Part shown: piece by piece, positions 10,232 to 32,063 of the stretch | How positions within the stretch are numbered: the stretch's first letter is position 1 | Layout: every line of letters starts with the position of its first letter | Source: Candidatus Wolfebacteria bacterium RIFCSPLOWO2_01_FULL_45_19 | Lineage (GTDB): Bacteria > Patescibacteriota > Minisyncoccia > UBA6257 > GWB1-45-9 | Assembly (NCBI GenBank): GCA_001793855.1 | Contig: MGIR01000004.1 | Location: 5,475-37,537 of the forward strand | Direction of reading: 5' to 3' | DNA length: 32,063 bases | Notes under the pieces: model-generated | Told to the model about the DNA's origin: nothing | Database searches by the model: none | What the model saw: the letters and a program-made list of their open reading frames with translations, nothing else | Position numbers and translations under genes: made by a program

Positions 10232-12271
10232 ATGGACAAGCAAGAGGCCAAAAGACGAATGGAAAAATTGAGGCAAGAGATTGACCGTTATAGATACGCT
10301 TATCACGTTTTGAATAAGTCGCTCGTTTCCGACGCGGCACTGGACTCCTTAAAAAAGGAGCTTTTTGATTTGGAACGGCAGTTTCCGGATTTAGTAACGT
10401 TCGATTCACCGACTCAGCGTGTCGCCGGGAAACCGCTCAAAGAATTCAAGAAAGTTCACCACGAAGAACGGATGCTTTCCTTCAATGACGCTTTTTCAGA
10501 AGAAGATATGCGTGACTGGATGGGACGCGTTGAAAATTATCTCGGCAAGAAAATCAAAGATGAATTTTACTGCGAGCTAAAAATTGACGGTTTGGCGATA
10601 GAACTTGTCTATGAAAACGGCATTCTGGTTCAGGCCTCAACTCGCGGCGATGGCATAATTGGCGAAGACGCCACGCAAAACCTCAAAACAATTGAAGCTA
10701 TTCCTTTACGCATCCAGATTCCAGATTCCAGATTCCAGATTCCAAACCGCTTCGTGGTTCGTGGCGAGGTTTTCCTGACCAAAAAAGAATTTGAGCGAAT
10801 TAATAAAGAACAGAAAAAGAAAGGACTGAAACCGTATGCCAATCCGAGAAATATCGCCGCCGGCTCCGTGCGCCAGCTTGATTCAAAAATAACTGCTGGC
10901 AGGAAATTGGATTCTTTTCAATACGACGTGGTAACCATTCTTGGGCAGAAAACGCACGAGGAAGAGCACGAGCTTTTGAAAAAATCGGGATTTAAAATCA
11001 ATCCTAACAATAAGCGCGTCAAATCGCTGGAGGAGGTCTTCGAATTCCGCGATTACTGGGCTAAACACCGCGACAGATTGCCTTATGAAATAGACGGCAT
11101 AGTTGTGATTATTAACGACAATAAAGTTTTTGATGATGCCGGAGTAATCGGTAAAGCGCCGCGCGCGGCAATCGCTTACAAATTTTCGCCAAAGGAGGCA
11201 ACTACAATTATTGAAGACATCAAAGTTCAGGTTGGCCGCACCGGCGCTTTAACGCCAGTAGCCGTATTGCGCGCGGTGAGCGTCGGCGGCATTACCATTA
11301 CGCATGCCTCGCTTCATAATTATGACGAGATTAAACGGCTTGGAATAAGAATTGGAGACACCGCCATAGTCAGTCGCGCGGGCGACGTTATACCGCAGGT
11401 GACCAAAGTACTTAAGGACTTAAGAACTGGAAAAGAAAAAGAATTTCATATGTTGACGCGTTGTCCGGCTGACGGTTCCAAAGTGATCAAAGAAGGAGCG
11501 GTCCACAGATGTTCCAATAAAAATTGCGGAGCGCGCGTCCGTGAGCAGTTGTATCATTTTGTGTCGCGCGCGGCTTTTGATATCCGTGGTCTCGGCAGCA
11601 AGATTATTGACCGCCTTTTGGACGAAGGACTCATCAGCGACGCCGCGGACATTTTTACGCTAAACTCCGGTGACGTCGCGGCCCTGGAACGCTTTGGCGA
11701 AAAATCAGCGGAAAATATCGTTCGCGAAGCTGATGGGCATAAAAAAATAACCCTGCCGCGTTTTTTATACGCTTTAGGAATTCTGCACGTTGGCGAGGAA
11801 TCCGTGCGTCTGTTGGCCGAGGCGTTGCTTCGCGGCAAGTCAAAAATTAATTTGCCAGCCGACGTGTTGAAAGTTGGAAAATCGTTAACTGAAGGAGAGC
11901 TTCAAAATATTCGCGACATCGGTCCGGCTGTGGCCAAAAGTATTGTTGATTATTTTAAGGACAAACGCCATCAAGAACTTCTAAAAAAACTGGATTCAGT
12001 CGGCGTCAAAATAGAAATCCCGCGTCTAAAAGCTAAAAGCTCAAAACTTAAAACTAAAACATTCGTTTTGACCGGCGGTTTGGAATCAATGAGCCGCGAT
12101 GAGGCAAAAGAAAAAATTCGCGAACTTGGCGGAGACATTTCAGAATCGGTTAGTAAAAAAACCGACTATGTCGTGACTGGCGGCGAGCCTGGTTCGAAAT
12201 TTGAAAAGGCGAAAAAACTTGGCGTAACAACTTTGACCGAAAAGCAATTTCTTGAGATGATTCAAAAATGA
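10232..12271 (+). CDS. ligA: NAD-dependent DNA ligase LigA
   Basis: LigA seals nicks in replication and repair using NAD. The 679 residues include the Ia and adenylation domains with the AMP-binding lysine K117 in CELKIDG, the OB fold (about 320-400), a zinc finger, helix-hairpin-helix repeats and a C-terminal BRCT domain (about 600-679, VLTGGLESMSRDEA). The zinc finger shows only three cysteines, C411, C427 and C432: the usual CPxC is CPAD here. Two degenerate heptamer arrays are read in frame: one puts RIQIPDSRFQIPNRF into a loop of the adenylation domain, the other gives RLKAKSSKLKTK before BRCT. The gene overlaps gatC by ATGA. Function is secure. Confidence 0.97.
   Translation: MDKQEAKRRMEKLRQEIDRYRYAYHVLNKSLVSDAALDSLKKELFDLERQFPDLVTFDSPTQRVAGKPLKEFKKVHHEERMLSFNDAFSEEDMRDWMGRVENYLGKKIKDEFYCELKIDGLAIELVYENGILVQASTRGDGIIGEDATQNLKTIEAIPLRIQIPDSRFQIPNRFVVRGEVFLTKKEFERINKEQKKKGLKPYANPRNIAAGSVRQLDSKITAGRKLDSFQYDVVTILGQKTHEEEHELLKKSGFKINPNNKRVKSLEEVFEFRDYWAKHRDRLPYEIDGIVVIINDNKVFDDAGVIGKAPRAAIAYKFSPKEATTIIEDIKVQVGRTGALTPVAVLRAVSVGGITITHASLHNYDEIKRLGIRIGDTAIVSRAGDVIPQVTKVLKDLRTGKEKEFHMLTRCPADGSKVIKEGAVHRCSNKNCGARVREQLYHFVSRAAFDIRGLGSKIIDRLLDEGLISDAADIFTLNSGDVAALERFGEKSAENIVREADGHKKITLPRFLYALGILHVGEESVRLLAEALLRGKSKINLPADVLKVGKSLTEGELQNIRDIGPAVAKSIVDYFKDKRHQELLKKLDSVGVKIEIPRLKAKSSKLKTKTFVLTGGLESMSRDEAKEKIRELGGDISESVSKKTDYVVTGGEPGSKFEKAKKLGVTTLTEKQFLEMIQK
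10714..10744 (+). repeat. Heptamer array (CCAGATT) inside ligA
   Basis: Four perfect copies of CCAGATT plus CCA lie in the reading frame of ligA, encoding part of IPDSRFQIP. The same unit, reverse complemented, makes the array in gatA. Confidence 0.9.
12026..12060 (+). repeat. Degenerate heptamer array (CTAAAAG) inside ligA
   Basis: Five 7-bp units follow each other: CTAAAAG twice, CTCAAAA, CTTAAAA and CTAAAAC. They are read in frame and encode a lysine-rich linker between the helix-hairpin-helix region and BRCT. Confidence 0.8.
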
Positions 12272-12679: not shown

Positions 12680-14107
12680 ATGTTTACCTTACACGATCTC
12701 ACAATCAAAAAAGTCCACGATGGTTTGTTAAGCAAGGAATTTTCAGCGCTGGAGTTGGCAAAAGAATTTTTTGAATATATAGCATACAAAGACAAAGAAG
12801 TCGGCGCGTATTTAACTTTGGATAAAGACGGAGCTTACGTCATGGCGGAAAAAACCGATATCGCTATTGCCAAAGGCGAGGAAATCGGGGTGTTGTCTGG
12901 TGTTCCGCTTGCCGTGAAAGACAATATGCTTATTGAGGGTCTGCCCGCGACCGCGGCTTCAAAAATTCTAGAAAATTACCGTGCCGCGTATGACGCTACG
13001 GTTATTGAAAAATTAAAAAAAGAAAATGCGGTTTTTCTTGGCAAAACCAACTTGGACGAATTTGCTATGGGTTCTTCAACCGAGAATTCGGCGTTTGGAA
13101 TAACTAAAAATCCGCATGACCTTAAGCGTGTTCCCGGCGGTTCTTCCGGCGGTTCCGCGGCGGCAGTTGCCGCCCATATGGCCGTTGCGGCGCTTGGTTC
13201 CGATACCGGCGGCTCAATCCGCCAGCCGGCAAGCTTTTGCGGCGTTGTCGGTTTGAAGCCGACTTACGGCGCAGTTTCGCGTTACGGCTTGATTGCGCTG
13301 GCGTCCAGCTTGGACCAAATCGGTCCGCTGACCAAAACCGTTGAAGATGCGGCAATTTTGTTTAATGCCATTCGCGGAAAGGATGAAATGGATGCGACGA
13401 GCGTAGATTTGAATCTGGAATCTGGAATCTGGAATCTGGAAAAAGTTAGAAAATTAAAAATCGGTTTGCCGAAAGAATATTTTGTAGCCGGTTTGGACAA
13501 AGAGGTAGAAAAAGCTGTTCAGAACGCGATTGATTCCATCAAAAGTTTAAAAATTGAATTTAAAGAAATTTCGCTCCCGCACACCAAATACGCGCTTTCT
13601 TGTTATTACATCATTATGCCGGCGGAAGCCAGCGCGAATTTGGCGCGGTTTGACGGTATAAGATATGGCTCGCGCGCCAAAAAAGCGGAAAACCTCCCCG
13701 AACTTTATAAAAAAACGCGCGGCGAAGAATTCGGCGCGGAGGCGCGGCGCAGGATAATTTTGGGCACGTTCGTTTTATCGTCCGGATATTATGACGCGTA
13801 TTACGCTAAGGCACAGAAAGTTCGGCGGCTTATAAAAAATGATTTTGACGAAACGTTCAAGGAAGTTGACATAATTTTGACTCCAGTCGCGCCCACTCCG
13901 GCTTTCAAAATCGGCGAAAAAACAGAAGACCCGCTTTCAATGTATTTGTCCGACATTTTTACTATTCCGGTAAACCTCGCCGGCCTGCCCGCGATTTCTA
14001 TTCCGGTTAAAACTGAATTACCAGTTGGCTTCCAGCTAATCGGCAAACCCTTCTGCGAAGCCGACATATTGTCCCTCGGACAGTTTTACGAAAAAATTTC
14101 GATTTAA
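12680..14107 (+). CDS. gatA: Glutamyl/aspartyl-tRNA amidotransferase subunit A
   Basis: GatA is the amidase that frees ammonia from glutamine for the transamidation on GatB. The 475 residues have the amidase-signature triad: Lys80 in LAVKDN, Ser155 in GGSSGGS and Ser179 in GSDTGGS. Length is normal for bacterial GatA. At residues 244-254 a four-copy heptamer array adds NLESGIWNLE in frame to a loop between the DATS stretch and KIGLPKEYF, a site that varies in the family, so function should be kept. The gene follows gatC and converges with uvrB, their stop codons overlapping by 4 nt. Confidence 0.97.
   Translation: MFTLHDLTIKKVHDGLLSKEFSALELAKEFFEYIAYKDKEVGAYLTLDKDGAYVMAEKTDIAIAKGEEIGVLSGVPLAVKDNMLIEGLPATAASKILENYRAAYDATVIEKLKKENAVFLGKTNLDEFAMGSSTENSAFGITKNPHDLKRVPGGSSGGSAAAVAAHMAVAALGSDTGGSIRQPASFCGVVGLKPTYGAVSRYGLIALASSLDQIGPLTKTVEDAAILFNAIRGKDEMDATSVDLNLESGIWNLEKVRKLKIGLPKEYFVAGLDKEVEKAVQNAIDSIKSLKIEFKEISLPHTKYALSCYYIIMPAEASANLARFDGIRYGSRAKKAENLPELYKKTRGEEFGAEARRRIILGTFVLSSGYYDAYYAKAQKVRRLIKNDFDETFKEVDIILTPVAPTPAFKIGEKTEDPLSMYLSDIFTIPVNLAGLPAISIPVKTELPVGFQLIGKPFCEADILSLGQFYEKISI
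13412..13440 (+). repeat. Heptamer array (AATCTGG) inside gatA
   Basis: Four perfect copies of AATCTGG (13412-13439) lie in the reading frame of gatA. The unit is the reverse complement of the CCAGATT unit in ligA, with the same copy number. Confidence 0.9.
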
Positions 14108-15930: not shown

Positions 15931-16509
15931 ATGATTTACGCCCTTGAAGGTAAAATTATGGCAAAAAAGTCTGGCCTGGCGATTGTGGAAGTTGGCGGAA
16001 TCTGGTTCAGAGTTTTCGTCGGAGCTGGAACGCTCGAAAGTTTACCACCTCCGGGAAGCGTGGTCAAATTATTTTCTTATCTCCGCATGCGCGAGGATGG
16101 GATTGAATTATACGGCTTTTTGAGCGAACGGGAATTAAGTTTTTTTGAGCTTCTCAATACCATAAGTGGCATAGGGCCGAAGTCGGCGTTGAATATTTTA
16201 AGCATAGCCAAAACCGAAGAGCTTTTCGCGGCGATTCGCGAAGGCCGAGCGGACCTTTTTGGCAAGGCCTCCGGAGTGGGCAAAAAAACAGCGGATCGCA
16301 TCATTCTTGAGTTGAAAAATAAAGTTGATTTTCACGAATCGGCCGAAATGGTAAAGACCATGGAGAGTGATGAAGATATTGTTGAAGCGCTTGTTGCCGT
16401 GGGATATTCGCGCGTCAAAGCGAAGGAGGCGCTTTCAAAAGTTGATGCTGGCCTGAAAGAATCCTCGGGGCGCTTTAAAGCCGCGATGGATATGCTTAAA
16501 CAACAATGA
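15931..16509 (+). CDS. ruvA: Holliday junction branch migration protein RuvA
   Basis: RuvA binds four-way DNA junctions as a tetramer and loads the RuvB motor. The 192 residues match the family. The N-terminal OB domain begins MIYALEGKI, the helix-hairpin-helix pair is visible (LLNTISGIGPKSALNILS and FGKASGVGKKTADRIILEL), and the C-terminal domain III, which contacts RuvB, contains EALVAVGYSRVKAKEAL. ruvB and ruvC are not in the window. The stop TGA at 16507-16509 is followed after one base by the first inverted-repeat element. Confidence 0.96.
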   Translation: MIYALEGKIMAKKSGLAIVEVGGIWFRVFVGAGTLESLPPPGSVVKLFSYLRMREDGIELYGFLSERELSFFELLNTISGIGPKSALNILSIAKTEELFAAIREGRADLFGKASGVGKKTADRIILELKNKVDFHESAEMVKTMESDEDIVEALVAVGYSRVKAKEALSKVDAGLKESSGRFKAAMDMLKQQ

Positions 16510-16510
16510 G

Positions 16511-16635
16511 TCCCGTTAGAAGCCGCTTCGCTACGGAAACGTTAAATTATGAATATAAAATTTTACCATCAGACAATTAACAAGCTAGGTAACGACTTCA
16601 TCAACATAGCGAAGCGTTTCCTGCTTCTAACGGGA
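16511..16635 (+). mobile_element. 125-bp inverted-repeat element, copy A
   Basis: The element begins TCCCGTTAGAAGC and ends GCTTCTAACGGGA, a perfect 13-bp terminal inverted repeat. Inside the ends are a CGCTTCGCT/AGCGAAGCG pair and a GGAAAC/GTTTCC pair. It fills the ruvA-MurE spacer exactly: one base after the ruvA TGA, and its last A is the first base of the next ATG. Copy B at 30814-30938 has the same length and almost identical ends, but a diverged middle. No protein is encoded, so it resembles a MITE or REPIN; a structured RNA between genes is the alternative. Confidence 0.8.
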
Positions 16636-17939
16636 TGAACGCGGAAAATTTTCTGGAACGTTTAAAAAAAAATGAACTGATCGTCGCTTTGTATCGGATG
16701 TCGTTTTTGAGGCGGGCATATCATTTTACGCTCGCTTTTTTAGGCGCTTTGGTTTATCGTTTTCCGTCCAGAAAAATTTTCGTTCTCGGTGTTACCGGCA
16801 CAAAAGGAAAATCAACGGTTTTGGAGTTGATAAGCGCCATTTTTGAAGAAGCCGGAAAAAAGACGGCGTTGCTTTCTTCGGTTCGCGTTAAAATCGGGAA
16901 AGACAGCGCCAAAAATAAATCATCCACCACTATGCCGGGCAGATTTTTCATACAGAAATTTTTACGGCGCGCCGTTGGTACCGGATGTGAATACGCGCTG
17001 ATAGAAGTTACTTCTGAGGGCATTGAGCAATTTCGCCACCGTTTCATAAGTTTTGACGCCGCGCTTGTTACCAATCTTCATCCCGAGCATGTTGAAGCGC
17101 ACGGCTCTTTTGAAAATTACAGAAACGCCAAGGTCAGTTTTTTTGAATATGTTTCGCGTTCACGCAAGAAGAAAGTGCGTTTTTTCATCAATGAAGAGGA
17201 CGCGCATAGAGATTATTTTATGGCTGTCGCGCGCGATATTGAATCGGTTGTGCTGTTTGGACGCGAACAATTTATAGAGAACGAAGTAGGCGCGCGTTAC
17301 ACGCTGAAAGCCATGGGCGATCACGGCGTCGTCGGTGATTGGCTGAGGGCGAATTTTAATCTTGAAAATGCGGCAGCCGCGGTGGCTTTCGCGCGAAGCC
17401 AAGGCATTGACTGGTCGGTTATCGCGGCGACATTCAAAAAATTCAAGGGCTTGCCTGGGCGGCTTGAATTTATACAGCACAAGCCGTTTACGGTTGTCAT
17501 TGACTACGCGCATACTCCTGATTCTTTGCGAAAGGTTTATGAGACATTGAGTAATGAAAATTCAAAGCTAATATGTGTTCTTGGCGCCGCAGGCGGAGGA
17601 AGAGATAAGTGGAAGCGTCCGGAGATGGGCAAAATAGCATCGCAATATTGTTCGGAAATTATACTCACAAACGAAGACCCATACGATGAGGTTCCGGAAA
17701 AAGTCTTGGAAGATATTGAGGGCGGTTTTCCGGGCGCGGTGAATTACAGAAAAATTATGGATAGAAAAGAGGCGATTCGCGCCGCTTTGAAATCGGTCAA
17801 AAAAGGCGATACAATTATAATTACGGGCAAGGGTAGCGAGATTTGGATGCGTGTTGCCGGTGGAAAGAAAATTCCGTGGAACGAGAAAAAAGTTGTGCTT
17901 GCCGCGTTAAAAGCTTCAAAGAAAAGGTCGCGCGTTTAA
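16635..17939 (+). CDS. MurE-like Mur ligase with a reduced N-terminal domain
   Basis: Mur ligases add amino acids to UDP-MurNAc precursors of peptidoglycan in the cytoplasm. The 434 residues show the ATP-binding loop GVTGTKGKST (52-61), a central domain with EVTSEGIEQFRHRF and NLHPEHVEAHGSFENYRNAK (MurE style), and the C-terminal domain with VIDYAHTPDSL. MurE is normally near 490 residues; here only about 50 residues precede the P-loop, so most of the UDP-binding domain is absent. The DNPR motif that marks diaminopimelate use is replaced by EDPYDE. Substrate is therefore uncertain; a peptidoglycan role is likely. The start codon is formed at the edge of the inverted-repeat element. Confidence 0.85.
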   Translation: MNAENFLERLKKNELIVALYRMSFLRRAYHFTLAFLGALVYRFPSRKIFVLGVTGTKGKSTVLELISAIFEEAGKKTALLSSVRVKIGKDSAKNKSSTTMPGRFFIQKFLRRAVGTGCEYALIEVTSEGIEQFRHRFISFDAALVTNLHPEHVEAHGSFENYRNAKVSFFEYVSRSRKKKVRFFINEEDAHRDYFMAVARDIESVVLFGREQFIENEVGARYTLKAMGDHGVVGDWLRANFNLENAAAAVAFARSQGIDWSVIAATFKKFKGLPGRLEFIQHKPFTVVIDYAHTPDSLRKVYETLSNENSKLICVLGAAGGGRDKWKRPEMGKIASQYCSEIILTNEDPYDEVPEKVLEDIEGGFPGAVNYRKIMDRKEAIRAALKSVKKGDTIIITGKGSEIWMRVAGGKKIPWNEKKVVLAALKASKKRSRV

Positions 17940-27289: not shown

Positions 27290-28610
27290 AATTTCCTTTT
27301 TTGTCCTTCTGCTTTCTTTGCCGTTCGGCTACCGCCGGTTATTTCACCAATTTACATTCGGCTTTGACGAGTATGAGGCGATTTTTTTGTATGCAAGCGA
27401 TATTTTATTGATATTGTTCCTGGGTCTATTTACGGTTTTTGTTTTTAGATTCAAAGCGCAAATTTTAAATTTCAAAAACTTTTCTACTTCCCACTTCCTG
27501 CTTTTCACTTTCTTGTTTTTTGCCGCTGTTTCCATATTTCTGGCGCAATACCAGTTTTTGGCTTTGTATAATTTCGCGCGATTGTTGCTGTTGGTATTCG
27601 CCGCGCTTGCGATCGCGGCGTTAATACGAGACGAGGTCGTTAAATTGTCGCATATTTTCGGCGTTATTGCCGGTCTCGCGGTTATTCAGTCGTTTATAGG
27701 TTTTTTGCAGTTCGCGCGACAGGGGAGCTTGGGACTTTGGTTTTTGGGCGAATCGGTTTTAAGCCCATTCATCGGCGGGGCAGCCAAAATATCGGTTGCG
27801 GGAGGTGTTTTGCTCCGCGCCTATGGAACGTTTCCGCACCCGAACATTTTGGCCGCTTTCTTGTTGCTCGGTCTTCTTGCGCTGTATTATTTTTGGCTAA
27901 ATCGCTCTTACGAGCGATCGCCCGACCTAGAACGCAATGCGATCGGTTTAGGGCTAAACCCTTGGAGTGATATTATAATCGGTGTCGGCATATTTATTGT
28001 TGCTTACGGATTGATTCTTTCATTTTCACGCATCGGATGGATTGTCGCGGCTATCGGCATGATTTTGACTTTGGTTTGGACGCTATGCCAGAAAGAATAT
28101 CGCGTTCAATCCACACGCTTATTTATAATTCTATTTTCTATTTTCTGCTTTCTATTTTCTACAATTGGTTGGGCAATTTTTCCGCGAGCGAATATCGCGG
28201 CAGATGAACCGGCTGTTACTTATCGTTTATCGTACAACGAACTTGGTTTGCATTTAATAAAAGAAAATCAGCTTGGAGTTGGCGTTGGCAATCAGGTTAT
28301 TTATTCTGTGAAAAATGGCGCTTACAAAACACTCGGAATGAGCGAGGCATGGCAATGGCAGCCGATACATAACATATATCTCTTAATCGGTTCCGAAATT
28401 GGAATTTTGGGACTTTTCGTTTTTTTAGTTTTTCTCGCGCTTTCAATTTTCAAACTCGAAAATTTCATTCCCAAAATCATGCTTTTATCTTTATTAATTT
28501 TTGGTTTAGCAGATCATTTCTTTTGGACTCTTCAGCCCGGACGATTGATGTTGTGGGCAGTGGTTGGTATAGTGTTGGGATTAACAAGCGATAGGCGCGA
28601 GTCCTCGTAG
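27267..28610 (+). CDS. O-antigen ligase / Wzy-like polymerase membrane protein
   Basis: The 447 residues have ten or more membrane segments and a large loop near residues 310-365. GTFPHPNILAAFLLLG and the loop with LGVGVGNQVIY fit the Wzy_C (O-antigen ligase/polymerase) family, which joins or extends glycans on lipid carriers outside the membrane. The target glycan is unknown. No ATG is available near the N-terminus; TTG at 27267 (or TTG at 27273) is the probable start, since an in-frame TAG lies at 27252. Two heptamer arrays (27459-27514 and 28131-28158) are read in frame as hydrophobic segments. The last 10 nt lie inside the tRNA-Arg gene. Confidence 0.88.
   Translation: MILQKLVKISFFVLLLSLPFGYRRLFHQFTFGFDEYEAIFLYASDILLILFLGLFTVFVFRFKAQILNFKNFSTSHFLLFTFLFFAAVSIFLAQYQFLALYNFARLLLLVFAALAIAALIRDEVVKLSHIFGVIAGLAVIQSFIGFLQFARQGSLGLWFLGESVLSPFIGGAAKISVAGGVLLRAYGTFPHPNILAAFLLLGLLALYYFWLNRSYERSPDLERNAIGLGLNPWSDIIIGVGIFIVAYGLILSFSRIGWIVAAIGMILTLVWTLCQKEYRVQSTRLFIILFSIFCFLFSTIGWAIFPRANIAADEPAVTYRLSYNELGLHLIKENQLGVGVGNQVIYSVKNGAYKTLGMSEAWQWQPIHNIYLLIGSEIGILGLFVFLVFLALSIFKLENFIPKIMLLSLLIFGLADHFFWTLQPGRLMLWAVVGIVLGLTSDRRESS
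27459..27514 (+). repeat. Degenerate heptamer array inside the O-antigen-ligase gene
   Basis: Eight 7-bp units can be written: CAAATTT, TAAATTT, CAAAAAC, TTTTCTA, CTTCCCA, CTTCCTG, CTTTTCA and CTTTCTT. They encode a loop and the start of a membrane segment. Confidence 0.6.
28131..28158 (+). repeat. Heptamer array (CTATTTT) inside the O-antigen-ligase gene
   Basis: Units CTATTTT, CTATTTT, CTGCTTT and CTATTTT lie end to end in frame and encode part of the segment FSIFCFLFSTIGW. Confidence 0.75.
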
Positions 28611-28675
28611 TTTAATGGATAGAACATCGGCCTCCGAAGCCGGGAATGGCAGTTCGAATCTGCCCGAGGGCACCA
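28601..28675 (+). tRNA. tRNA-Arg (anticodon CCG), CCA encoded
   Basis: All four arms fold. Acceptor GTCCTCG pairs with CGAGGGC (one U-G), followed by discriminator A and an encoded CCA. The D stem is GTTT/GAAC, the anticodon stem TCGGC/GCCGG with loop CTCCGAA, giving anticodon CCG for the CGG codon. The T arm is GGCAG-TTCGAAT-CTGCC. The variable loop has four bases. The first 10 nt overlap the end of the upstream coding region on the same strand. It is followed at once by a perfect palindrome and a patch of tRNA-arm copies. Confidence 0.95.
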
Positions 28676-28720: not shown

Positions 28721-28848
28721 GCAGATTCGAACTGGGAAGGGGGTCGGGGAAACGGGAGTTTTCCCGTGACGGAGTCCACGAACCGAAGGGTTCGTGAGCG
28801 CAGTCCCGCTTTTGGCGGGACGAGCAGTGAGATTCTGCCCGAGGGCAC
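28721..28848. repeat. Patch of tRNA-arm copies and hairpins behind tRNA-Arg
   Basis: GCAGATTCGAACTG (28721-28734) is the reverse complement of the tRNA T arm (28650-28663). TCTGCCCGAGGGCAC (28834-28848) is a direct 15-nt copy of the tRNA 3' part (28659-28673). Three hairpins lie between them: ACGGGA/TCCCGT (28752-28767), CACGAACC/GGTTCGTG (28777-28796) and GTCCCGC/GCGGGAC (28803-28821). It may be the scar of an integrated element or a tRNA-linked repeat. Confidence 0.65.
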
Positions 28849-28864
28849 AATGCAAATGGCAGGA

Positions 28865-30470: not shown

Positions 30471-30812
30471 ATGAGCTTCGCCTTGATTTATATAGTTGTG
30501 AGAGCGTTTTATAGTTTTGTTAAATTTTGGCGGCATTGGTATGTTGAAAGTTTTACGATTATCGCGCGTATGGCAATGAATGTTCTGGAGAAGCTTGACC
30601 GTGTATTCGCGGTAAGAATAAATTTCCGTTTTCTTCTTCAGCCGCTCTATCAGGATTATACCGTCGTCGGTCGCGTTATCGGTCCAATATTTCGTTTGAT
30701 TCGGGTTATTGTCGGTTCGTTGATTTATTCCGTGACTGTTGTTGCCGCGGCGATTTTTTATATCGTTTGGGCTTTGTTGCCGGTTTTTATTATTTATAGA
30801 GCTTTAACATGA
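30471..30812 (+). CDS. Small membrane protein upstream of the Clp-like ATPase
   Basis: No named family is recognised. The 113 residues have an amphipathic or membrane-spanning N-terminus (MSFALIYIVVRAFYSFVKFW), a central basic part (LEKLDRVFAVRINFRFLLQPLYQDYTVVGRVIGPIFRLIR) and a C-terminal hydrophobic stretch (about 80-110). The ATG at 30471 is chosen because of the TATAAT box 6 nt upstream; an in-frame start 18 nt earlier would overlap that box. The stop TGA is one base before inverted-repeat copy B. Without that insert, its stop would overlap the start of the ATPase gene as ATGA, so the two probably work together at the membrane. Confidence 0.75.
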   Translation: MSFALIYIVVRAFYSFVKFWRHWYVESFTIIARMAMNVLEKLDRVFAVRINFRFLLQPLYQDYTVVGRVIGPIFRLIRVIVGSLIYSVTVVAAAIFYIVWALLPVFIIYRALT

Positions 30813-30813
30813 A

Positions 30814-30938
30814 TCCCGTTAGAAGCCGCTTCGCTGCGGAAACTACAAATAAGCAACATGATATTTAGCAATAAACAATTAACCAAAGCAGATTATGACT
30901 TCGCCAGCACAGCGAAGCGTTTCCTGTTTCTAACGGGA
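30814..30938 (+). mobile_element. 125-bp inverted-repeat element, copy B
   Basis: It begins TCCCGTTAGAAGC and ends GTTTCTAACGGGA (12 of 13 bases paired). The first 30 bases match copy A at 16511 except for one, and the last 28 match except for one. The middle is diverged but keeps ACAATTAAC and GACTTC at about the same places. Both copies are exactly 125 bp. As with copy A, it starts one base after a TGA stop and its last A begins the next ATG. No protein is encoded. Confidence 0.8.
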
Positions 30939-32063
30939 TGAAGCATGAAAATTTAAATATTTATTACAGAGACCCAAGGATGGATATGACCATCGGGGGA
31001 AGATTTTTGGTTCGCGCTTCAAGCTATCTTGGTTATGGACTTTTGACCGCATTAACCGCGTCTTTCTTTATTTCGGACATAACAGCTTTGCGTTGGCTCG
31101 GTGTTTTTTTCGCGCTGTTTCTTATTCATGAAATATATCATCGCGGCGACGCGGACCGCTCTTTAAAAAATATAAAATCCGAAGCGGAAATTAACGTTAA
31201 AAATTATTTATGTCCATCCGCGTGGTCTGTGATTGGATACGCTTTTGACCGCGCGCTTTTGGGCGGGGGAGATTTCTACTTGCTAGCGCTTAGGTCGCTC
31301 TTATCAAAAAGCGAGGTTCGTTCCGCTTTTTTAAAACTTGAAATCAAACCGGATGAAGTGGAGCAAAAACTGGAGGATTATATTAAAGAGAGTGTTAAAA
31401 ATACGACGTCAAAGGCTGGAATTAAAAAAAACGCCGAAGAACTTGTTTTATCGGCGTTTCGGCAGGCGATGTCAACCGATGACCGTTTCGTAAAACCTTA
31501 TCATTTGGTAGGGGCTTTTAGTTCGGCGAAAAACGATTATGTTTCGCGTTTATTTGGCGTTTTCGGCATACAGCCGTCAGATCTTAAATACGCCATAATT
31601 TTTAGCCGTTTTTATTCAAGATTTTCTTTAATTCGTAATCTTCCGAGAGAACTTGGTGGATTTGTTCACGGACCGGGAAAAATAAGGCACCGCGTAATGA
31701 ATCGCGCCTGGACAGCTCGGCCGACGTCGACTTTAGACCGCTACAGCGTTGACTTCACCGATTTGGCAAGAAGCGAAAAGGTAGGTTTTCTTATAGGCCA
31801 TGAAAAAGAATTTGACCGGCTTGTGAACGTATTGTCCCGCCTCTCAAAGCCCAACGCTTTATTAATAGGAGAGCCAGGAAGCGGGAACGAAACAATCGTT
31901 TCGCATCTTGCTTATCGGATAACCAAAGACGACGTGCCACCGCAGCTTTTTGACAAACGGTTGGTGTCTTTGCAAATAGGAAGTTTGGTGGCCGGAGCAA
32001 AAACCGGCGAACTTCAAGACAGGGTTAGGCGAATAATTGATGAAATACTAGCCACAGGAAACA
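30938..32063 (+). CDS. Membrane-anchored ClpC-like AAA+ ATPase, 5' part
   Basis: The frame is open from ATG 30938 to the window end (375 residues). Two hydrophobic segments lie at about 28-65 (YLGYGLLTALTASFFIS, LGVFFALFLIHEIYH). A Clp-N-like region follows (about 90-250), then the first AAA+ domain: YSVDFTDLARSEK, LIGHEKEFDRLVNVLSR. Walker A reads GEPGSGNET (311-319): Asn stands where the P-loop lysine belongs. The pore-loop region, KYRGEF in ClpC, reads AKTGELQ and lacks the Tyr. This suggests that D1 may not hydrolyse ATP or grip substrate normally; a second AAA+ domain would lie outside the window. The start codon is formed at the edge of the inverted-repeat element. Confidence 0.82.
   Translation, partial: MKHENLNIYYRDPRMDMTIGGRFLVRASSYLGYGLLTALTASFFISDITALRWLGVFFALFLIHEIYHRGDADRSLKNIKSEAEINVKNYLCPSAWSVIGYAFDRALLGGGDFYLLALRSLLSKSEVRSAFLKLEIKPDEVEQKLEDYIKESVKNTTSKAGIKKNAEELVLSAFRQAMSTDDRFVKPYHLVGAFSSAKNDYVSRLFGVFGIQPSDLKYAIIFSRFYSRFSLIRNLPRELGGFVHGPGKIRHRVMNRAWTARPTSTLDRYSVDFTDLARSEKVGFLIGHEKEFDRLVNVLSRLSKPNALLIGEPGSGNETIVSHLAYRITKDDVPPQLFDKRLVSLQIGSLVAGAKTGELQDRVRRIIDEILATGN

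Follow-up and report, generated by a model that had tools for sequence, protein, structure and literature searches.

Small mobile elements of several kinds have been described in bacteria. The family that we report here resembles MITEs such as RUP and Correia/NEMIS (PMC2229807, PMC10969869), which are small and non-coding, carry terminal inverted repeats (TIRs), duplicate their target, are inferred to move in trans and form an RNA hairpin by pairing of the 5′ end with the 3′ end. Unlike the known MITEs, however, it inserts at start codons and rebuilds the ATG, and a parent IS was not found. The palindromic elements of Rickettsia, which are 105-146 bp in length and have a long stem-loop and inverted ends, do not destroy host genes (PMC2229807), although they form in-frame, translated parts of coding sequences (PMC10969869). 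Our family is like them in size, stem-loop, inverted ends and the sparing of host genes, but it precedes the first codon and follows no frame rule. REP/REPIN sequences with TnpAREP (RAYT) (PMC3116915, PMC8266576) also have inverted palindromic ends, a length of about 100 nt and movement in trans. In contrast to these, the family has a 4-nt duplication, TGRA, in place of the GTAG tag, TIRs that pair across the whole element and no consistent RAYT partner; the duplication likewise separates it from IS200/IS605 (HUH) derivatives, which have no target duplication. IStrons and other self-splicing elements (PMC4227781) are a further case of mobile DNA that spares the host gene, but they do so by splicing, whereas the family would be harmless through a start codon rebuilt in the DNA. 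Our literature search, with preprints outside its scope and absence thus unproven, found no description of this family, of MITEs in Patescibacteria, CPR or Parcubacteria, or of start-codon elements; the terms "start codon" and "initiation codon" are absent from the main text of the reviews PMC2229807 and PMC10969869.

The sequence studied here, copy B, is one of two 125-nt copies (A and B) in a stretch of 32,063 nt from a Wolfebacteria genome, which we call the window. Our analysis suggests, with a probability that we put at roughly 85%, that copy B is a MITE-like element, mobilised in trans, that inserted at a start codon and rebuilt the ATG. It belongs to a family of tiny mobile elements in Patescibacteria that has apparently not been described before.

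Results

The two copies and their neighbours in the window are as follows.

15931..16509, + strand: ruvA, upstream of copy A
16507..16510, + strand: left repeat of copy A, TGAG; the contained TGA is the ruvA stop
16511..16635, + strand: copy A, probable mobile element of 125 nt
16635..17939, + strand: Mur ligase gene, downstream of copy A; its start is the rebuilt ATG
16636..16639, + strand: right target duplication of copy A, TGAA
30453..30812, + strand: gene of 119 aa upstream of copy B, in synteny with the downstream gene in 11 relatives
30810..30813, + strand: left target duplication of copy B, TGAA; the contained TGA is the stop codon of the 119-aa gene
30814..30938, + strand: copy B, probable mobile element of 125 nt (TCCCG...CGGGA), with an empty site in relatives
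30814..30826, + strand: left TIR of copy B, TCCCGTTAGAAGC
30926..30938, + strand: right TIR of copy B, GTTTCTAACGGGA, with one change that pairs as G-U
30938..32063, + strand: gene downstream of copy B, open frame of 859 aa; its start is the rebuilt ATG
30939..30942, + strand: right target duplication of copy B, TGAA; its TG completes the rebuilt ATG 30938-30940

The initial annotation, made from the sequence of the window, had described two copies with the same length of 125 nt and near-identical ends, each preceded by TGA plus one base and each followed by an ATG that begins at its last base. All of this was confirmed; at copy B the TGA occupies 30810-30812, an A follows at 30813 and the final A of the right TIR is base 1 of the rebuilt ATG. 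The common setting that had been claimed holds to this extent, but the flanks are not the same, with TGAG on the left and TGAA on the right of copy A and TGAA on both sides of copy B. The copies are 75% identical across a 146-nt alignment, with near-identical 13-nt ends around a diverged middle, as had been proposed. Both also lie at would-be ATGA junctions, yet as a definition of the element this proved too narrow, the general rule being location in the start codon itself. The 859-aa frame extends past the end of the window, and Pfam gave no match in its first 375 aa or in the 119-aa gene upstream of copy B.

RNA folding predicts that both copies are more stable than all of 200 shuffles (z -5.2 and -5.5). 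The predicted stem of copy B runs from the base after the UGA through the U of the AUG and would bring stop and start side by side, from which we infer a possible aid to re-initiation. A search of the window with Rfam at the gathering threshold matched only a tRNA, and no ribozyme or known structured RNA was found for the element.

Some unrelated features of the window may be recorded here. Two heptamer arrays, both 100% perfect, lie inside the coding sequence of essential-type genes, one (TCCAGAT x4.6, 10713-10744) in the ligA-like DNA ligase gene and the other (GAATCTG x4.4, reported as the reverse complement, 13411-13441) in the gatA-like amidase gene; none was found in 2.6 Mb of other DNA. 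A tRNA-Arg(CCG) at 28601-28675 has a 42-nt, 76% copy of its 3′ half at 28816-28857, at a reported distance of 175 bp and with an inverted repeat between them. The partial copy may be what remains of a tRNA, or a scar left by an element that had integrated.

The host genome (588,822 bp in 10 contigs, rated 100% complete) contains further full-length relatives at C2:53019 and C4:43247, and nested or partial ones on contigs C1 and C8. Its copies stand at the starts of the Mur ligase gene (A), the 859-aa frame (B), rpsS, whose S19 product was confirmed by Pfam, a gene for a 106-aa protein, and two genes that we take from their translations to be a DEAD-box-like helicase and rpmI; one copy on C2 is intergenic. 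The copy at rpmI follows a gene presumed on the same grounds to be infC, and the two again form an ATGA overlap. The ends of the family read TCCCGTTAGAAGC...GCTTCTAACGGGA, and its elements have no coding capacity. The exact 13-mer end is present in 16 of 61 genomes of the order, and the pattern with both ends in at least 116 DNA stretches of the genome collection, in agreement with the earlier claim that the placement of the two copies is beyond chance. The titled records among the matches listed are MAGs labelled Patescibacteria or "bacterium", mostly Parcubacteria/Paceibacteria; the lineages among these matches include Nomura-, Zambryski-, Taylor-, Kaiser-, Lipton-, Sung- and Terrybacteria and others, with a few Levybacteria/Microgenomates. 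A strict pattern was found in 2 of 380 genomes drawn evenly across the phylum, both of the same class. The family is widespread in Paceibacteria, with few members in Levybacteria/Microgenomates. No viral contig matched the element.

The initial annotation had expected a fixed length together with paired changes in the stems. Length is not fixed: family members measure 42-350 nt, those at start codons 74 to 280 nt (mode 117-120), and 42-nt copies exist with the same ends. The paired changes, on the other hand, are present, so that only half of the outcome named there as a refutation, free length without paired changes, was seen. The outer 13 positions are paired in 98-100% of 116 distinct copies, which were collected by these ends, and position 13 varies among C-G, T-A, A-T and G-C. 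Inside the TIR follow an asymmetric bulge (3 nt on the left, usually one T on the right) and a second stem. In 50 copies the right arm of this stem matches the left arm with a constant offset, and in 12 it forms a local hairpin. This second-stem fit, seen in 62/116, compares with a mean of 19 and a maximum of 29 when arms were exchanged between copies, which indicates that pairing is maintained while the sequence changes. The earlier proposal of selection on end recognition or structure is upheld by the invariant TIR and by the conserved pairing of ends and inner stems; the maintained pairing may serve a recombinase (as DNA) or the message (as RNA). Subfamilies share the outer 10-12 nt and differ in their interiors, and no conserved motif was found in the interior across the 116 distinct copies, so that an internal promoter was rejected. 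A short GC-rich subclass (50-91 nt; L112, L122, L124, L125, L145 and G060 C3:177795) has the same ends, with duplications TCAA/TTGA or TAAA, and lies away from start codons. In a near-full census of one genome (G060), a class of 100-117 nt is found at starts and a class of 70-91 nt (TCAA/TTGA) is not.

Evidence for transposition comes from the flanks and from empty sites. Identical 4-nt flanks border 153 of 285 candidate TIR pairs, against 7-20 at 2, 3 or 5 nt; these family counts contain nested pairs and a few orthologous copies, so that the effective numbers are somewhat lower. The flank pairs include TGAA/TGAA (84), TGGA/TGGA (29), TGAA/TGGA (3), TGAA/TGAG (3) and TGAG/TGAA (1, which is copy A). 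Since the flanks agree within a copy and differ between copies, they are duplicated and not carried, and a carried tetranucleotide in the style of IS200/IS605 was rejected on this ground. Near-identical copies (up to 97%) occur at unrelated sites within one genome. The distance from the rplB stop to the rpsS start is 126 nt in the Wolfebacteria genome and 1-17 nt in most relatives, and subtraction of element plus duplication (124) leaves 2. The neighbours of copy B are adjacent in 11 relatives; the offset from stop to start is +125 here and, in the eight relatives with plausible starts, -14 to +5, the start being less clear in G012, G001 and G004. One relative (G005) has an ATGA overlap (-4) at this site, and 125 minus 129 is exactly -4. 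Elsewhere, an 8-kb contig piece (L155) holds three copies, 94-96% alike, at adk-like, L24-like and L29-like starts, which is a recent local spread in a ribosomal operon; the same piece also has, ahead of an L15-like gene, an 81-nt copy that belongs to another subfamily. Tandem insertions at L136, L162, L223, L179 and L213 consist of a second element in the start codon rebuilt by the first, or of two stacked full elements.

Oriented on the duplication, the target reads A|TGRA, which places the element inside the start codon, and its last A plus the duplicated TGRA form the rebuilt ATG. The host gene is not broken because the start codon is rebuilt in this way. Of 124 TGRA copies, 110 have an ORF of at least 60 codons that begins at the rebuilt ATG, compared with 30% of ATGRA sites generally; the remaining copies mostly precede short ribosomal proteins (L35, L36) or other short frames, or are tandem insertions into a rebuilt start. 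There are 508 ATGRA sites available at starts, 590 in intergenic and 5101 in coding DNA. If only start and intergenic sites survived, and equally, 46% of copies would be expected at starts, and 89% were observed (p=3e-23). ORF calling was simple for these figures, and some nested or orthologous copies are counted in them, although the difference is wide. Immediately ahead of the duplication stands A in 118, G in 6, T in 3 and C in 1 (n=128), so that most targets are ATG and almost all others are the alternative starts GTG or TTG. The duplications TGTA, TGCA and TGGC also stand ahead of long ORFs. The genes downstream are often essential ones, and the Pfam-confirmed products are S19, L35, L36, S13, L22, SSB and a Toprim protein (topA). 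Of 92 copies that could be tested, only 18 have the stop of the upstream gene in or at the left repeat, and 60 have an upstream stop within 60 nt. The ATGA overlap is therefore a special case, and the location in the start codon is the sharper rule.

Orientation, judged from internal asymmetry, is strongly biased, with the ATG made by the right end in 133 of 156 copies and by the left end in 12. Of 25 copies in which a single flank has remained TGRR, 24 have kept it on the right (24 vs 1, p=1.5e-6). Retention of the right TGRA while the left decays argues that the rebuilt ATG is in use; this flank decay is what would be expected if the left copy were free to change. The element supplied a Shine-Dalgarno motif in 0% of cases, compared with about 11% of control starts in these hosts. 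The lengths of start-codon copies are distributed 52/32/32 modulo 3, which amounts to no frame rule, and a leader-peptide model, in which the left ATG would be read to a TGA overlapping the right ATG, was rejected on this basis.

No copy of the family carries a transposase, and no autonomous copy was found by TIR pairing in the 61 genomes or in the near-full census of G060. The sole long TIR pair with two exact ends in the 61 genomes, of 1,082 bp in G013, was rejected as an autonomous element, being an unrelated membrane-protein gene between two short elements. In L091 (536-1618) the membrane-protein gene is CcdA-like and is flanked by two different family elements; the gene with its flanking elements could be mobilised as a composite unit. 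None of the families Y1, DDE_Tnp_1, IS1595, rve and RVT_1 tracks the element (DDE_Tnp_1 3/61, IS1595 2/15, rve 3/16, RVT_1 8/16; for Y1 see below).

Discussion

The members of the family are short and lack a transposase gene, have TIRs and a target duplication, and occur as dispersed copies with empty sites. This combination, read from comparison of genomes, identifies them as probable MITE-like, non-autonomous transposable elements, and we hold this classification with the same high confidence as the account of copy B of which it is part. A putative transposase supplied in trans would recognise the inverted ends and cut TGRA (mostly TGAA or TGGA) inside a start codon with a 4-nt stagger, and the element would nearly always enter in the same orientation to the gene. 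The TGRA would then be duplicated by repair. The left copy would preserve the upstream TGA stop where the genes had overlapped as ATGA, and the last A of the element together with the right copy would supply the gene with a fresh, in-frame ATG. Ribosomes would begin the downstream gene there, at the base of a long hairpin and with no Shine-Dalgarno sequence. The TIRs, the duplication, the empty sites, the location in start codons, the orientation bias and the retention of the right ATG can be read from the sequences; what we infer is a transposase and how it acts, translation starting at the hairpin foot, and the reason why starts are preferred over other intergenic TGRA sites. The failure to find an autonomous copy, the lack of a transposase family that tracks the element among the five examined, and the short GC-rich subclass away from starts count against this account.

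The strong hairpin (z about -5), the paired changes of the inner stems (62/116, where shuffled arms gave 19 on average and 29 at most) and the frequency of operon junctions (60/92 within 60 nt of an upstream stop) would also suit a vertically inherited RNA leader, an attenuator or riboswitch-like structure that evolved in place at such junctions. The 4-nt target duplications, unrelated downstream genes, empty orthologous junctions, near-identical copies at unrelated sites of one genome and tandem and nested insertions speak against such a leader, which we consider refuted as a full account and very improbable, although single copies may later have been domesticated as regulators. It is just as improbable that the insertion is made harmless by excision from the message, as in an intron, or by ribosomal bypass. 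Given its 4-nt direct repeats and closing hairpin, the element could be removed precisely, or the ribosome could leave the left ATG and resume at the right one, but either process would allow insertions inside genes, and TGRA copies are found at ORF starts despite the 5101 coding ATGRA sites; the free length modulo 3 and the decay of the left ATG with retention of the right also speak against it. A REPIN-like element moved on single-stranded DNA by a RAYT/Y1 (HUH) transposase seems somewhat less remote, though still improbable. The size of about 120 nt, the inverted ends and the hairpins are in keeping with it, and Y1 genes are present in 8 of 16 genomes with the element vs 8 of 45 without (Fisher p=0.02, a weak association). 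However, the other 8 carriers lack a Y1/RAYT gene, among them G060 with about ten copies, and no element end was found near ten inspected Y1 loci. A duplication that agrees within each copy and varies between copies is not an HUH signature, and the GTAG of REP tags is absent, the flanking TGRA/TYCA being the duplication.

A further question is whether start codons are sensed at all. The enzyme might simply need TGRA, with A preferred before it; coding insertions would be lost and copies at starts would survive through the rebuilt ATG. The A before the duplication in 118 of 128 copies means that plain ATGRA describes most targets, yet such a mechanism predicts about 46% of survivors at starts, where 89% are seen, and intergenic insertions should be the safest of all. 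Selection after insertion alone explains the absence from coding sequence and not the scarcity at intergenic ATGRA sites; we regard this explanation as rather unlikely. A recombinase that recognises translation starts themselves, for example by acting where transcription or translation keeps start regions open or marks them, is an equally tentative proposal; the element would be self-neutralising, turning ATG, GTG or TTG into ATG, and some copies would then, as hairpins, bridge the stop and start codons of operon genes. Beyond motif with selection and active recognition, there may also be selection that favours copies at starts.

To spare their hosts, mobile elements generally insert outside genes or rely on splicing. 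The family described here would represent a third solution, in which the start codon is hit and then restored from the terminal base of the element together with the duplicated target. The family precedes many essential genes in gene-dense, reduced genomes with few safe sites, and the element creates 5′ leaders that gene finders would misread. It makes testable how transposition can favour translation start sites, and how Patescibacteria, with few Shine-Dalgarno-like motifs, initiate at the foot of a strong hairpin.
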